A stretch of 64,000 bases of DNA from Tetrahymena thermophila SB210 (taxonomy: Eukaryota > Ciliophora > Oligohymenophorea > Hymenostomatida > Tetrahymenidae): NCBI RefSeq assembly GCF_000189635.1, contig NW_002476212.1, forward strand, positions 806,001-870,000, given 5' to 3'. Position 1 is the first letter of the stretch; each line of letters opens with the position of its first letter. The position numbers and the translations under genes were made by a program. Positions 3,852 through 48,007 of the stretch are shown one piece after another. The notes below the pieces were generated by a model. The model was not told the origin of the DNA and did not search any database. It saw only the letters and a list, made by a program, of their open reading frames with translations.

Positions 3852-3981
3852 AAATGTCCTTATCTTGGTATCTTTTCACATATGAACATATGATAAGAGC
3901 CTAAGAGAAGTTTCACTATAGATAACGCAAGCATTAACAACATATGGAGATATAGTTAATGACTCTGTTACCCTTACCTAT
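3852..3981 (-). ncRNA. Candidate H/ACA-type small nucleolar RNA
   Basis: A GC-richer island in AT-rich spacer folds as two hairpins on the minus strand. Hairpin 1 has a lower stem GGTAAC/GTTATC, internal bulges and an upper stem CATTAAC/GTTAATG. Hairpin 2 has a lower stem CTTATC/GATAAG and a possible inner ATATG pairing. ACA sits at 3857-3855, three bases before a T run, as expected for an ACA box at the 3' end. The hinge (about 3890-3905) has no perfect ANANNA H box, which is the weak point. No open frame covers the island. The 5' end is set approximately from the start of the outer stem. The target uridine is unknown. It could instead be another structured pol III or snRNA-type transcript. 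Confidence 0.5.
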
Positions 3982-33501: not shown

Positions 33502-37687
<4,186 letters not shown>

Positions 37688-39807
37688 CTCTTTACTTTTT
37701 TTAGTCTTTAAATTATTATTTTTTTATTTTTTCTTTATTAATTTTTTTTCCTTCCCTTTTATTTTATTAATGAACTTTATATGTAATTTTTCCTTGCATA
37801 TTTTTCCTCTTTTTTGTTTCAAAAGAGTCTCTTTCTCTCATTCTCATTGTAAAATCACATTCATTTTTTCATAGTTAATTTATTTTTCATATTAATCGCA
37901 TACAAGGATACTAGCTAGCTAGCAAGTTCACATTCGTTTATATATGTACAATTCGTATCCATCTATGTTTTTATTTATTAATTTGTTATTTTACATATAA
38001 AAATAACAAATTATTGACTAAATCTTTAATTTTATTATCATATTTTTTCTCTCTGCCTTTTAATCATCTTTATATTTTTAATGAATTTTATATGCCACTT
38101 TCTTTGGATACTTCACAAACCATTTTTATTTTATGTTTTAAATTAAAAATAATTAAATAAATAAATAAAATCCTTCTTCAAGATTTCCATTTCTTTATTT
38201 AATGTTTAAGTATTTAATACTTTTTAATAAAAAACAAAGATAAACAAAAAATTAATAATTTAAAATATTCCTAATCAAAATAAAACTCAAAAAAACAAAT
38301 TCTTTTTTATTTCAAATTTTATTATTAATTATCATTATTATTTCTAAAAAATATCTTTATTAACTAACTAATTGATTATTTATTATCACAAATTATAACA
38401 AATAGTTTGTTAATAATTTATATAAATCCATTTTAAATTCTAAATTATAATTAAAAATAGCCAAAATAATAATTATATTTAATTCTTAAAATAAATAGAG
38501 AAGATTTTAAATATTTTAATTCTGAATAGTTTTTATTAACTTTAAGATTATAAAAACTTAATTTGAATGAATATTTTTTTAAATGTAGAAAAATAGCTAT
38601 TTCACTTAATATTTTAAGAAATATAAAATTGGCTTTAGTAAATATAAAATACAACTAATAATAACTTATCTTACTTTTTTTAATCATGAATAAAAATCAA
38701 TATTGTTTGGTGTTTATTAAATTAGAGCTTGATAATATTAATATTAATTTTAATTTAAATATTACTTAAATGATTACTTGAAAAACCTAAATATCAAAAA
38801 TATAAAAAAATTAAATCAATTAGCAAATAACCTTAATTTTTTTTAATATCAATTAAAAAATAATATTTTTTGATGAGGTATTTAAATATAATACACTAAA
38901 TTAATTTTACTAAATTAATAAAACATAAAACAGACAAATAATTATGTAATGAAACAAATTAATTCTAATTTTTTAAATAAAGATCTCTTTAATTATTACT
39001 ATTAATTAATATTTAAAGCTGAAAGAATTTTAAGGTATTTTCTATTAGTTTTTTTAATAGTTTTTTTTGAATGACATTTTATTTTATAAAAATATCAATT
39101 ATTTTTTAATTAAAATATAGAAAAATAAATAATTTTTTGAGGTTTGATTTTCGTATTAATCGTAAACATTTAAATTCATGAATAGGATACTCTTTTTATT
39201 AACTTATAGAATAATTAAATATTTTAAATAATTTTTTTTTACTTAACATCCTTTAAATAATTAATAGTGGAATTAAAATAAATATTTCTCAATCTAAAAT
39301 TACTTTGATAAACTTTAAAAAATAAAATTAAAGAAACATATTAGTGTTTCTTTGAATTGAATTGCTATTTTGTTTTTTGTTCTCTTTATAAATATCTACT
39401 AGTTTTGAGCATATTTAATATTTTTATTCTTTAAATTATTAAATGAAAATATATACTAATATTTATATTTACTTTAACTATTTAGTTTTTATTGTTAAGA
39501 GAAAAATAACTTTTTTAATTTTTAAGTTATTTATATACTCAAGTAAAATATATTTATAATCAAATTTCGTAGGTTAAATTTCATTTTAATAAATTTTTGT
39601 TTTGATGATTGAGATCAACTTCATAATTATTATCTACAACGCTTAGAGTAGATCAACTTTTTAAATAATAAGAAAAAAACACTAAAAACTTATATTCCTA
39701 CAATATAGTACTTGAATTGAAAACATATTGGGATATTAAGTCTACTGATAATTAAAAATAATTTAAATATACTAAAATTTTTTATTAAATTATTAGTAAA
39801 TAAACAG
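37688..39807. other. Gene-free AT-rich region with CTAG palindrome
   Basis: About 2.1 kb with the ATP synthase promoter at its left end. T-rich tracts at 37690-37780 lie just upstream of the start. A (CTAG)n palindromic run is at about 37910-37924. The open stretches at 38451-38654 and 39785-39970 on the minus strand are AT-rich and look non-coding. Confidence 0.5.
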
Positions 39808-41361
39808 ATGATATCAGATAAGCAATTTTCTTAGATAAATTATCATAAAATAAGAAAAAGAAGAAGGAGAAGTAACTTAATAATACTTTGCTTTGAAGGA
39901 GCTCAAATGTCTTAATTCTAAATGTAAAACTAAACAAATAATTTAACCAATTTAGGAAATAAGGAATCAAATTTTTTCAGTGATATTCATGAAATCGATA
40001 AAATAAATTTCGAAATATCAAAAATAGGTTCTGAGATATTAAGAATTACTCTCATGGTTAAATAGCGTAATATAAAAGATATAAACAAAAATTTTTAAGC
40101 AACATTAACTAATTACTTCTTAGAGTGCTACGTCTGTACTTTGCTGTTGAAGCATATGGGTCTTTAGTACAAGAGAGAAGTAAGGAAGATAATGGAGAGT
40201 AATCTTATGGTGAGATAGATTCAAGAATAAAATTGCGATGAAATTTAATGCTCTTTTAATGAAAATGAATAATAAATAATGGAAAAAAATTGCTCCTCAT
40301 ATATATAATCTATTGAAGATGATATAATCAGCAATAAAATAATTTCTAAAAAACAAAATAAATGTAAGACTAATAAAAAATTAGCCAAATATATACTCTT
40401 AATTAAGGTATACGAAGAGCAAATTAATCAATATAAATTAAGAGAGGAATATATTGATATGTTGGTTGAAAAGATAAATGAAAAAATAGATTGTTTTTCT
40501 AAAGATAGTCAAAAATACATCACAGAATACTAAAAAAAGCTTTGTGCTGTGCTTCTTCTTCAGCATTTTCTATAAACTAGTAAAGGAAATGAAATAAATA
40601 GCTTTTGTGAACTCTGGAATTCTGTCTTTGTTAATCTTCCGCTGTACTATTTTGCTAGAGAAAATAATATTTTTTATAATAAGATTAAAATGGGAGAAGA
40701 GTCATCACAAGAATATTTAAATTAAATTTTGAGCAGTGCTGAACTAAAAATTAAAGTTTAAGAAAATTTACAAGATTAATTAATTAAAACGAATTTCAGT
40801 GAAACATAAAAATAGAAGAAAAATATAAAAATTGCAAATTATAAAAACATAAAATAAAATCCTCCAAATATTAATTTAGATTATTTTTAGATAGCAAATT
40901 AATACTATGGATAGCAAATTAAATTAGAAAAATATTCAGATTAAAATTTATTATTAAAAAACTTTCTAAAGCTAGAAGAAAATCAAAAGATAGAGTGCAA
41001 TGACATAAACAATGATGAACTTCATATGGTTGCTAATCAAATTAAAGTTGTAAATATGTTGGGTAAGTTAAAGCCAAAAATAAAAAAAAGAAATTTTAAA
41101 AGAAAATAAGAGCTTCTAAAAATAGATTCAAATTAGAATTTACCTTCTAAAAAAATAAAGATGCTTTAATAAAATGAAAGTATTTCAAGTAATCAATTAT
41201 AAAAATTTTAAAATGATTTACAGCAAGACTCCTCCTTTTAAGACATGTAATCAAGTACTAATAAAAATTAACTAAATAGTGATTTATAATATGAGATTTA
41301 AGAAAAGAATAATAATGATAATAAAAATATTAACAAACAAGTGAAATACCGTTTTATATGA
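39808..41361 (+). CDS. Unknown protein, paralogue A of a local intronless pair
   Basis: One uninterrupted frame of 517 codons from ATG 39808 to TGA 41359-41361; a later ATG near 39907 is an alternative start. Two conserved blocks are shared with the gene at 46157-48007: block 1, about residues 75-130, contains KDINKNFQATLTNYFLEC and QYKREVRKIMES; block 2, about residues 190-290, contains KYITEYQKKLCAVLLLQHF, SFCELWNSVFV and YYFARENNIFYNK. The rest is a Lys/Asn/Gln-rich linker and tail. Both blocks are predicted helical, and the pattern of block 2 loosely recalls a cyclin-box or TFIIB-like repeat, which is a weak guess. No signal peptide, membrane segment or catalytic motif. It is intronless, unlike most genes here, and lies in a gene-poor stretch. 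Confidence 0.75.
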
Positions 41362-44300
41362 ACTAAATAAAGAATTATAACTTCAAAATTATACAAACTA
41401 AAATTTTTGAAATTTATAACAAAAAAAGAAATTAATTAGCAATTATTTCAAGCATCAATAATAACTAATCTAACTTACTAATGAACTAACCTAATTTAAT
41501 ATTTATTATTAAACTACTATTCAAATTTACTATATTTATTATGTAAGTATCTTAATTTTCTTACTATTATAAAACTTTTACTAGTACAATTTATTACATT
41601 TTTATTCAAATATTAAAGAAGAATTATGAATTTATTTGAAAGGATTTATTATATATATATATATATAAAACATATTTTTATACAAAATGTAAATATTTGC
41701 ATACATTTTTTTTATTTAATTAATCCAAACTTTCCTTTTATTTGCTATATAAGTATTTATTTTACTTTTACTATTATAAACCTTTTCTTAAGTAAATTAT
41801 ATTATGCTTTTAATGGAAAATATTAAATAAAAGCTATGTTTTTTGTATTAAATGGAATAAGTTATAATTAAAAAAAAACTATTTTCTATGATTGTGCAAA
41901 AGATTTATTTAAAATTACTTATTTGTTAAAGTTAAGTAAATAATTAACTTTAATTTTATTTTAAATAAATGTAATAAACAGAATGACTTTTGAACTCATT
42001 AATTATTAAAATTTCTAACTTACTTCAAATATACGAAATAATACGTTTATATTTATTTAATTTAAAATATAGACTTGATAAATATGAAATTTTAAAAGTC
42101 TTATAAAATTAAAATACTTAAGCTAGTAGTTAAATAATTATTATTTATCTATATATCTTGCTTAACTAAAATAGATTAAGTTTGCTAAATAATTTAAATA
42201 ATTGAATTAGACATATTAAATTTAAATAATTTAATTAGATATATCAAATTGAAATAATTTAATTAAAAAATTAAAAAGACATTGTCAGCAATTTTAAATA
42301 AGCCTATCGAAATTATTATATAGTAAAATAAATAGAAATATTTATCTACTTTTATAATTTAAATAAAGGAAATAAGAATTTTCAATCAATCTTTTACCAA
42401 TTTAAAATTCTTAAATTCAATAAAATTTTTAAAATATTTCAAAAATTTATATTTTTATTTACAGCTAATTTTTTTGTTTTATACAAATTAGAAAAATAAA
42501 TAATCAATTTACTACTTTTATGAACAATTAAAATTTTTATGAAATATCTTAAATTTATTTAATTTACTTATTACACATCTACGAAAGATAAATTTGATTA
42601 TTTATTTTAATTAAAAGTAAACATTTTTTAAATTACAAGGCATATAATTCACAATTTTTAATAAAATTTTTCTATTTTAATTAATTATTTATAAAAATAT
42701 AATTTAATCCTAAAATAGTAAAAGTTTAAGTAATGAAAGTTTCTGATGTTAAAAAAATTCAGAATATTAAAAATAAACATATTAATATTTTTTTGATAAT
42801 TAATTTCAAAATTAAACATATTTTTATAATTAAATATCATTCTTAAATCAATAAAAAGTTAAAAAAGTAATATTTTATTTTATAAAAATGAAACAAATGG
42901 TACTAAGGTATTGTTTGATCTATTGCAAGCCGAACGATAGATGCATGCTAGGTTATTTCTTTAAATATATACACAATTCATTAAATAATTGTTTTTAAAA
43001 AAGCAAAATATATTCAATCAAAATTTGAATTTAAGAAAATAAAGTATTTCGTTTGCTGTTAAAAGTTTATTATTTGTTAATTTTATTAATTCAAATTTAG
43101 CTTATAAAAATATTAAATTATCAAAAATATTATCTGTATACACTAATTATTTTTTTAGTATGAGTTACTTGTTTAATTTTTAGCAAATCTTGTAGTAAAA
43201 TTATAAATTTTAAGCTTATTTTTTAGTTACTAATTTTATAATAGATAATAAAAATTACTTTATTTATTTTTATTTTTGAAACAATTAAGTAGTCAACTAA
43301 AATTTTTAAAGAACTTTAATGAATTTAAATAAATATGTTATAAAACCTCTTTTTCTTTTTAGCGTTAAGGCAAATTGTTTTAAATTTAGCTGAACATACT
43401 TTAAAATGTTTGGAATTTTTAATTAATTTCACTTCTATTAAATTAATATCAAGAATTTATCTCATAAAAGGTAATTTTTTTAATTTTTAAACAAAAAAAA
43501 ATTTTGTTGTATTAATTTGTTTTAAAATGATTCTTCAAATAGTTTTTTAAAAATTATGAATAATTAATTAGCTCCATATGTCTAAATAAATTATTTTTTT
43601 TAATTTATTTTTTATTTATTTTTTAGAATTTCTTAATTATAAGTTAGAAAAGAATATTTTATTTAAATTTTATTAAATACTGTTTTACGTAACAAATTGT
43701 GATTTATTTTTCTTTTTTGGAATAATATCAAGATATTTTAATTATAATATTAAATTTTTTTCATTTCTTATCAATTTTTATTTAGAATTCTTCATAATAC
43801 TCTAGAAAAATCATTTTGTTATAGTTTTAAAAAATGCTGGTTTAAATTTAATTTAAAAAAGTTTATCTTAACTCAGTATATTTTTAATTTGTTTTTTCTC
43901 ACAAAAAAATACTAATTTATTTTTGCATTTTTCGCCCAAATTAAGGTGCTACTTTTAAAATTATTCATCAAATAGTTTTTTTGAAGTAAAGAACATTTAG
44001 TCAGATTAAACTAACAATTTTTATAACATTGGTAAATTTAATTTTTTATTACTTCTTTTTAATTATAAAAACTGCTAAAAATATATTTAAAATAATCAAT
44101 AATTTACAACTATTTATGTAACATTATTTATACTAGTTAAATTTTAAATCCAATAGTATATTTCTAACGCATACTAATTGTAATTTTTAAAAATAATTTA
44201 AAATAAATATATATATAAAGCTGACCAATTTTAAAATCAAAATAATAACACTGTTCTTAATTTTCTAAAGCTAGCTGATTTTGATATTTACTAGCATAAT

Positions 44301-46156
44301 TTAATATCCTCTTTCGCTACTAATTATAAAAAAGTATAAATATATTTTAAGTTGAAGAGTTAAATTAGTTAAATAAAATTATATTTTTATATCCTATTGT
44401 TACAATATATTATGAAAAAATCTATGCTATTATCGATTATCAATATAATTGCTGTATTATCTCAAAATACATATAAATTTATTAATTGCTTGTTATACAT
44501 TAATTTATTTATTTAACAATGAGTATTCTTTGTTTTTTTATTAAAAATAAATCAATTTTAATTCTAAAATATTTAAAATTTGAAATATAATTAATAACTT
44601 GAGCAATGAATATATTCAGACTCAGCGAACTGCGAACTGACCTTAATTCATATTACTTTAGCCATTCTTAATTTAGCAAGAAAAATAAAAAATATCATTA
44701 CATATTTTTCATATAATTTTATTTTCTAGTGACTCTACACAAAGTTATTGACTTTGATTGATGTATGAAAAAAGTTGAAATATTTATTAATAATATAAAT
44801 GTACTTCAAGCTTATAAATTTGTTTTTAAATATTCATACTGAGAATATAAAATGTTTTTACTAAATTTCAAATAAGTAGTTTTATGTTATTTGAAAAAAT
44901 AAATTAATCTTTAAACAAACATTCTATTTTTATCTTAATATGGATTTAATCACTTTGCAAACTTAAAATATGAATGACTTTTACTAAATAATTGAATAAA
45001 TATTTATTTTATCTTTATGATGCAGTTACAATCTATCCATGGTTTTTTATGGGCTTTTCCATTTTATACAACTGAAAAATTGTTTTAATCTTAATTTGAA
45101 AGATAAAAATAATTGCTGATCTGCCATAATTTACAGGAAATTTATGTTTCTTAAGAATGAAAGTTAAAAAATTGCTAATTTATTTGTTTTTAACATAACT
45201 AAAAACAGCGCTGCTAAGCACTAAATATAAAAGCAATATTTTAAAAAACAATTTTAAAATTATTTTTGTTATATGAAATTCTTTTTTTCATTTTAAACTA
45301 AAATTGATAATTTAAAAAAGGAGTTTTACTTAATTTTATGCAATATTATTTGCAACTTTAAAGAAATTAAAATGCTGCTTAATTATGTAAGGACAATTAA
45401 TAGAAGCTTGATTTCATTTAAATAAAATAAACTGCTAGATGAGTTAAATTTTTTAAATACCATAAAAATTTTTATCTTAAACCGCTCTTGATTGTTAATT
45501 TTACTATTAACATTATTTATTTGTTCTAAAATTTTACTTATGTAATTTATTTAAATTAACCTGTTATTCAAAGGAATTGTTCAGTTTTAAATTCCATTTG
45601 AAAAATAGGTATGTATGGCTTGCTTTATTAAAGTTAAACAAAAATAATAATAATAGTTTTAAGACATTATTTTTAAAAATTAAGAAAGAATAAATTAATA
45701 TAGGCAATTAAAATAAATAATTTTTAGAATTAATCCTAAATATTTAAAAATAATTAATGCTAAAAGTATAAAACCAGAGTAAATGTTTATATGAAATGGA
45801 GATTTAATGGTTTAATAGTATACTGCATTATAGTTAATATTAATAGCAGATAAAAAACATGAATTCAAAAATTTTTAAAAAACTCAAAAGTGTAATTAAA
45901 AATTTTTTTTTATGTATAAATGATAACAATAACAACAACAATAACAATTATAATGACAATAATTATACTGACAATAAAAACATAAATAATGTTGATAATT
46001 AAAAACAATAGCAGCAAAACAATTAATACTAAAATAAGTATTGCAGAAACAACGAAGTTAATATCAATTATTAAACAATAATAATTATATTAACAAAAAA
46101 GCAATTAATTACTGTCTGATTTTAAAACAAAGGGTATATTAAATAATTTAAATAAC
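41362..46156. other. Gene desert between the two paralogues, with small GC-richer islands
   Basis: About 4.8 kb of extremely AT-rich DNA, the longest gap in the window. Small GC-richer islands occur at about 42895-42955, 44625-44675, 45025-45060 and 45195-45225. None has a long TGA-free frame or a clear fold. An Asn-codon-rich open stretch at 45859-46128 starts with ATG but is in another frame from paralogue B and ends in TGA; it may be the 5' leader of B. Confidence 0.5.
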
Positions 46157-48007
46157 ATGAACAAAATTTGTAACACTGTTGAGTAGTTCTCTGAATATAC
46201 AGAGTAGCCTTAATAGGCAGTAGTATACTCAACTGTGCATGAAATTCCTGAAATTAAGGATTAAATAGACGTTATTGCTTCCGAGATACTCCGTATCACC
46301 CTTGATGTTAAAAAAAAAAATATAAAAGACATTAACAAAAATTTTTAAGCGACTTTAACAAATTACTTCTTAGAATGTTAAGTTTGTTAGCTCTTAACTA
46401 AACCGATGAACTTGTAGTATAAAAGAGATGTAAGAAAGATTGTTGAATAGGTACTTGACAAGCTCCTCAACTAAGAAACTACAGAACTCAAAAACCCTAA
46501 ACTGTCTTCTAAGTTGGTTTAAAACTGGGATATCAATAGCATTATTCATCACATTGAGCCAATCAATCAAAACAATCATAATTATTATTGCTAAAGAAAA
46601 GAGACTTTGTCCTCTGATGTCCATAGTACGCAAATTAAATACCAAAATATGAGCCAAAATTCAGATAAATTGAATTGTAAAAGGTCATAAAATTAGATTT
46701 CGTAGCCTAAGCTATAGCGCTAAGTGCATAGCTCTTAGTATGTTAAAAAAGAGAAGATAGCCAAATACATAATGCTGATCGGTATTTACGGTGACTTTAT
46801 AGATTCTTTTGGGCTTCAAAAAGAATTCGTTTAAGCTCTTGTTGATAATATTAAAATTGGTTCAAATACCTAAATTTTTTAGGTGGACTCACAGAAATAC
46901 ATTACAATGTACTAAAAAAAACTGTGTGCCATTCTTGTATTATAACATTACTTGCGTAAGCAAGACAGATTTAACTTCAAAAGCTTTTGTGATTTATGGA
47001 ATTCAGTTTTTTTAAATCACAAATTATTTTACTTTGCCCGTGAGACAAATGTCATCTATAACAAAACATAAACATGCAGCCTGTACGAAGACTGTAACGG
47101 CAACTTTGACGCTAATTCGTAATAACAAAAAAAAAAGAAATGTAATCAGCTAATTATAAATTTTTACTAGTAAGGTTCTCAAATCAAAAAGCAAAAAATA
47201 AATGACAAAAGTGTAGGGATTGCATATCAAAAAAATTAAACGTTAATTAGAAAATACGAAGATGAAACAACAAAAAAATCAATGGCTAACTATAAAAGTA
47301 TTCCTTAAATCAGTCCTGTTGTATTTTTAAATTACTATGAATGGGCATAAAAATCATTCTTTGCAAATAACAATAATAATTTTTGGGACAATTCACAAGA
47401 ATTGTGTTAATAGTTTAGTGCTAGATAAACATAATGTTAAAATAAAAACAGTAATTTAGATAATTATGAATACGAAGCAATTTAAGAAGAAGCAGGTAAT
47501 AATTGTCTCATTAATTCACCCTTATAGTCTTCAATATCTTTAGACTAAATTTCTCATCAAACATATAAAAAATAATAACTAAATTTAACAATAATTTCAA
47601 ATAGTATAGAGAATAGAGAGAAAAACTAAACTCTTGTTATAATTCCTAGCACTTCTTATAAATATAAAGCAAAATAAAAGAAATAAAATTAATGCTAATA
47701 ACAAAAATAGCAAACAGAATTAACAGAGATCACTCAGCTGTATGAAGGCTTTAGCAGATTTGAAAACTAGTTTCAAAATAATGTAGAAAATTTCAAATAA
47801 ACTAAACAAACTACCAATTGCACTAATGAAAATAAATTTGGATTAGTTTTAAATTAGCAAAAAGCCGCTGAATGCTCTACTGCGAAATACAGATAATTAC
47901 AATTAAATAGTATAAATCATCAGCCGGCTAGCCAAATTCTAGAGTACTTATCTTAATTTTTTAGTACTACAGCTGACTGCGATTATCAAAAAATTAAGCA
48001 AAGCTGA
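46157..48007 (+). CDS. Unknown protein, paralogue B of a local intronless pair
   Basis: One frame of 616 codons from ATG 46157 to TGA 48005-48007. The frame is open further upstream to an ATG near 45989, so the start is not certain. It shares with the gene at 39808-41361 block 1 (ASEILRITLDVKKKNIKD, NKNFQATLTNYFLECQVC, LQYKRDVRKIVEQVL) and block 2 (KIAKYIMLIGIYGDFID, SQKYITMYQKKLCAILVLQH, SFCDLWNSVFLNHKLFYFAR), plus a weaker third block (MANYKSIPQISPVVFLNYY). Block 1 is about three-quarters identical by eye, block 2 roughly half. The linkers are longer and Gln/Asn-rich, with an acidic-to-basic C-terminal tail. I do not recognise the family. The order of blocks is kept between copies, so this is a gene duplication with diverged linkers. 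Confidence 0.78.

Follow-up and report, generated by a model that had tools for sequence, protein, structure and literature searches.

Two neighbouring genes of the ciliate Tetrahymena thermophila SB210 are, as far as their sequences tell, members of an undescribed and strongly expanded ciliate gene family. They lie in a stretch of 64,000 nucleotides (the window) that is part of contig C288, and the genome searched comprised 101 Mb in 445 contigs. An earlier, sequence-only reading of this DNA had taken them for two paralogues of an unrecognised family and had suggested counting the copies genome-wide. The paralogy stands and the number was too small: the count gave at least 41 family loci, each with a piece found at E 1.1e-7 or better in one search with a majority consensus, and searches with single members agreed in finding relatives across many contigs. 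Seventeen of these loci sit on contig C59 (133–267 kb, i.e., within some 134 kb); the window pair is among the 24 that lie on other contigs or positions. All locus counts are lower bounds.

Gene 1 (P0001, 517 aa) occupies positions 39808..41361 and gene 2 (P0002, 616 aa) positions 46157..48007, both on the plus strand, as are all their parts given below, and both as a single open frame in code 6. For either gene, none of 2000 base shuffles gave an equally long TGA-free frame. The two proteins share 37% identity over 380 columns (BLASTP, E 8e-52). Block 1 of the conserved domain covers residues 56–135 in gene 1 (39973..40212), with near-invariant NK, Y and E positions inside, and residues 23–102 in gene 2 (46223..46462). 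A linker follows (40213..40365 in gene 1 and a longer one, 46463..46741, in gene 2), then block 2, at residues 187–294 of gene 1 (40366..40689), with an invariant W inside, and at residues 196–306 of gene 2 (46742..47074), and finally a C-terminal tail (40696..41358, Q+N 29%, and 47081..48004, Q+N 27%, respectively). The start of gene 2 is uncertain because its frame is open up to an earlier ATG at 45920; the AAC/AAT-rich, in-frame stretch 5′ of the gene (45920–46156, plus strand) is probably a leader.

Between the two copies, block 1 shows pS 0.78 and pN 0.26 (77 codons, 70% amino acid identity) and block 2 pS 0.94 and pN 0.32 (103 codons, 53% identity), values that show purifying selection on both; the tails are barely constrained (pS 0.63, pN 0.54). 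The earlier reading had also considered that one copy might be decaying. At the sequence level neither does so; both have kept open frames and constrained blocks. The duplication looks old, since almost no repeats are shared outside block 1: a search of 38–50 kb for repeats of at least 30 nt (seed 14) returned a 150-nt match in block 1 and otherwise only two AT-rich direct pairs of 31–35 nt.

The spacers at 38100–39700 and 41400–46100 have a GC of 0.14 and 0.16, so that the term “gene desert” used before is apt for these local spacers and not beyond them. To the left of the pair is a gene of the ATP synthase alpha/beta family (33954–36991, minus strand), in several separate frames and with a GC above its surroundings, and to the right an LRR frame. 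Elsewhere in the window, a stretch on the minus strand (3852–3964) matches TtnuHACA1 of Rfam, an H/ACA snoRNA of Tetrahymena (141 bits).

The family proteins have a common layout, an N-terminal basic domain of about 170 aa and then a long tail that is rich in Q/N and has acidic patches. The consensus core of the domain reads ...LNKQFQDSIKNYFLE...KYMNLLNIY...RKKLVALLLL...FYEIWNSLFP...KKK. In 35 aligned domains, rows that were themselves found by likeness so that the counts carry that selection, the K of NK and the W are present in 35, the N in 34, the Y in 33, the Q in 32 and the E in 31. The window pair holds most of the NK, KY, RKK, W and C-terminal basic positions in order (both block 2 sequences read QKK instead of RKK), and by this measure, and by genome matches that were reciprocal, belongs to the 35-row family. 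Of 30 relatives scanned, 29 have the domain uninterrupted within a single open frame, while the window pair splits it by a linker; the thirtieth locus, C214a, has an insert, its domain matching as two pieces of one frame. An insert is present in C114a too, and C13 and C442 were likewise found to have the domain in one frame. Net charge is positive in all 35 domains (+2 to +15), a K/R cluster closes most rows, and in 11 of 34 members a K[KR]x[KR] follows the domain at a distance of no more than 60 aa (in shuffles 3.9 members on average, with 1 of 1000 shuffles reaching 11). Membrane-like stretches are nearly absent: a 19-aa stretch with a Kyte-Doolittle mean of 1.6 or more was found in one of 35 domains and one of 34 tails. 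Block 2 of gene 1 came out as all-helical in a single-sequence model (mean pLDDT 56), for which the best Foldseek match in the PDB had an E of 5.2, and helices only were also obtained in the AlphaFold model of the two-row domain (mean pLDDT 35.8), both models being of low confidence.

A tree of 35 domains joined the window pair at 100/99, then C162 at 96/86 and C318 at 100/97. Its longest branches (2.5 and 4.1) belong to C114:815850-816377 and 820964-821449, two oppositely oriented loci separated by about 5 kb. The tree took in 35 of the at least 41 loci and left out five C59 copies, C139 and two weaker C59 pieces; the tail analyses, with 34, left out one more C59 copy, and many tails are cut at the edge of the locus. 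The C59 cluster, with 16 genes on one strand and one on the opposite, looks from its sequences like the product of long-running tandem duplication. Protein identity in five pairs picked by hand (mostly tree neighbours) goes from 87% to 51%, and pN is well below pS in all five. The closest pair compared, L063 and L069, has 87% protein identity with dN 0.059 and a dS of 0.37, which shows that it is no assembly duplicate. Besides the 41 loci two weaker pieces were seen on C59, one of them with an internal TGA, a 46-aa family fragment at C59:155391-155528 that is possibly a decayed copy.

The sequence-only reading had both genes lacking introns, where intronless means a TGA-free frame running through and nothing more. 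Such a frame runs through both genes; for gene 1 the absence of introns is unproven, as its linker may be an in-frame intron. The candidate (40210–40368, 159 bp, GTGAGA...TGTAAG) is in phase 0, lies inside the domain and lacks an in-frame TGA, as do 41% of spacer windows of the same length. Its GC (0.21) is high for a spacer, just below the 95th percentile (0.22), and similar to that of the gene 1 tail (0.20), so that composition does not decide between intron and coding sequence. The linker of gene 2, taken as a GT...AG candidate (46451–46738, 288 bp), has a GC of 0.33, higher than its own blocks (0.285 and 0.286) and well beyond the values of spacers (95th percentile 0.20); it is coding-like, and unlikely to be an intron. 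The domain homology of the pair holds with or without splicing of the gene 1 linker. The window pair is not distinguished by its open frame across the domain, which is common to the family.

The description as an unrecognised family held up well. Searching Pfam and NCBIfam with 24 members at E up to 1, we found no family matching more than one member; among the best 25 of 36 matched families, ordered by member count, this was already so, and the remaining ones therefore also match one member each. Tra1_central (0.0014), Prp18 (0.0023) and Cas14 (0.0037) matched one of the 24 members each and were taken as chance. Neither the two proteins of the window nor the consensus nor seven longer members had a Pfam or NCBIfam match at E 0.01 or better, and nine family proteins scanned had no Pfam domain at E 0.01 or below; STAT_linker (0.063, with the consensus as query) and DUF418 (0.21) were set aside. 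By sequence, nothing in the PDB matched below E 0.24, the profile matches at E 0.24 and 0.87 being set aside too. Scans of prokaryotes and viruses, with the pair alignment and two short peptide patterns each, gave no relative, and no description of the family was found in the open-licence literature at the level of titles and the first part of abstracts.

The tails are richer in Q+N than the domains (31% vs. 16%), and they carry a short motif, [VILMF]KxE, which corresponds to the SUMO acceptor consensus. It was counted 44 times in 32 tails (9955 aa), compared with 10.2 (sd 3.1) in shuffled tails and with none of 1000 shuffles reaching 44, and the reversed pattern seven times (10.1 in shuffles). 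Over 34 tails the figures are 45 forward and 7 reversed (p 7e-8); 19 of the 34 members have the motif forward and seven reversed, and 15 tails are without a site. The richest tails are those of L067 (C184:753 kb, 11 sites) and L072 (C59:199 kb, 6 sites), and when both are removed 28 forward sites are left vs. 6 reversed. By groups, which are partly of convenience, forward to reversed counts were 8:2 (C424/C184a/C130/C114), 4:0 (C115/C336a/C122/C214), 4:0 (C123/C336b/C78), 14:0 (C418/C38/C184b/C13/C442) and 12:2 (C59). The pattern had been picked after repeated IKQE and VKVE were noticed in the tails, so that more weight lies on the specificity controls than on the p-values. With residues other than E at +3 the forward to reversed counts were D 12:11, Q 31:22, N 15:17, S 16:18, T 2:9, K 14:21 and R 7:5. 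Sorted by the residue before K, they were 35:3 for V/I and 10:4 for L/M/F, A and P also leaning forward (5:1 and 5:2). It takes E at +3 to give the forward bias, which is most marked with V or I before K. Control ORFs from the window, which include spurious and antisense frames and are not matched for Q/N content, lean forward as well (28:19), and the family differs from them (Fisher p 0.003). When 10049 short motifs were scanned without bias, IK.E came 19th by z (present in 13 members where 3.0 were expected), with acidic motifs, e.g., EED, above it. At the family level, predicted SUMO consensus sites are above chance in the tails. In the clade of the window (both genes, C162 and C318) there is no enrichment, with three forward and three reversed matches; gene 1 has two putative sites in its tail, IKLE (40918..40929) and LKLE (40966..40977), both SUMO-consensus-like, and the tail of gene 2 has none. 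The SUMO lead thus extends to genes 1 and 2 by kinship only.

Tentatively, and at somewhat less than even chances, we favour the view that these proteins are soluble, probably nuclear regulators that combine a helical domain for docking with a disordered tail open to tuning by SUMO. Through the helical domain they would dock to protein partners or to chromatin, the tail would be modified by SUMO at [VI]KxE sites in many members, and the proteins would act as nuclear regulators the assembly of which is tuned by SUMO. The few membrane-like stretches, the K/R clusters after the domain and the positive charge of the domains fit a soluble nuclear protein; nuclear location, SUMO attachment, docking and tail disorder are what we infer, as is the whole mechanism for the window pair. 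SUMO matters during Tetrahymena conjugation, and SUMOylation of Spt6 is reported to depend on Ema2 (PMC10830130). Family members resemble such SUMO-modified nuclear factors in having the SUMO consensus in the tails of 19 of 34, and differ from them in that their sites are predicted ones and that the clade of the window lacks the enrichment.

The domain could instead be a lineage-specific DNA-binding domain, and the family a set of sequence-specific transcription factors with Q-rich activation tails, which we consider rather unlikely. The basic charge of every domain and the K/R cluster that ends most rows would suit it, as would the acidic motifs in the Q/N-rich tails. However, no DNA-binding profile was matched by more than one of the 24 members, and in an AT-rich genome proteins become rich in lysine, so that charge says little about DNA binding.

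Very improbable, in our judgement, is an origin from a mobile element that spread intron-poor copies, with the family as its relics or as parts of it that were domesticated. The one-frame domain of the members read, the scatter over many contigs together with one dense cluster, and the 46-aa fragment with its TGA are what such an element could leave behind; but none of the nine proteins scanned gave a Pfam domain, the flanks of the window pair, when compared, shared no long DNA, and the copies are under purifying selection.

About as little probability, or slightly less, is left for the middle of the domain being a diverged three-helix bundle of the KIX type, with the family acting as MED15/CBP-like coactivators with Q-rich tails. 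By eye, the series 'REVRKxIExxL ... KYMxLLNxYxxxI ... EYxxLLxxII' followed by a Q-rich tail recalls MED15 and CBP, and like the KIX coactivators (CBP/p300, MED15) the family has a helical domain near the N-terminus, a long Q-rich tail and a similar helix order. In favour of this possibility is also that Tetrahymena, as described in PMC12716044, is without most recognisable Mediator subunits and has Tetrahymena-specific proteins that interact with Med31; an earlier study, as noted there, had predicted several Mediator subunits in Tetrahymena. Yet hhalign gave a probability of 0.2% with CBP and 0.2% with MED15 (single sequences), whereas CBP and MED15 in the same setting gave 25% with each other; the likeness has no profile or HMM-HMM support, and the family domain is about twice as long. 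With PF02172 and PF16987 (KIX and KIX_2) there was no match in the genome up to an E of 1, a search without a positive control in this genome.

That block 2 recalls a cyclin or TFIIB repeat, as first suspected, is not supported and most improbable: both are helical, and the 'KKLCALLLLQHF' helix is loosely like the cyclin 'GVTALFIASKYEE' helix, where the best, non-significant hhalign match falls, but Cyclin_N (PF00134) and the TFIIB profile (PF00382), which find 25 and 4 stretches of this genome at E 0.01 or below, have none at a family locus, and hhalign of the family with seven cyclins of this genome gave a probability of 0.1%.

Lineage-specific expanded families are of a known kind in Tetrahymena. 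Its LRR genes went through lineage-specific expansion, form tandem clusters and are under purifying selection, features that the present family shares; LRR genes of the younger groups have arrays of 90-bp exons (PMC6564038), and no LRR was found in the nine family proteins scanned. The Tetrahymena-specific Mediator-associated proteins (MITS1-13, EMIT1/2 and RIB1; PMC12716044) are a possible functional class for the family, also Tetrahymena-specific, the comparison being one of descriptions and not of sequences. A more ambitious and improbable version of the SUMO-tuned regulators favoured above is that they would be a ciliate-specific class of co-regulators in the nucleus, in more than 40 copies, with a helical fold that is new and disordered tails switched by SUMO, partly replacing Mediator and coactivator subunits apparently missing from ciliates, with the 17-gene cluster providing variants specific to a stage or state.

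Should the assignment be right, more than 40 genes of a model genome form a family that carries no label and was missed by the profile libraries searched. The tails of the family would predict SUMO targets in an organism in which SUMO is already linked to the transcription of long non-coding RNA and to DNA elimination (PMC10830130), and the size of the family would offer many natural variants with which to test which residues matter.
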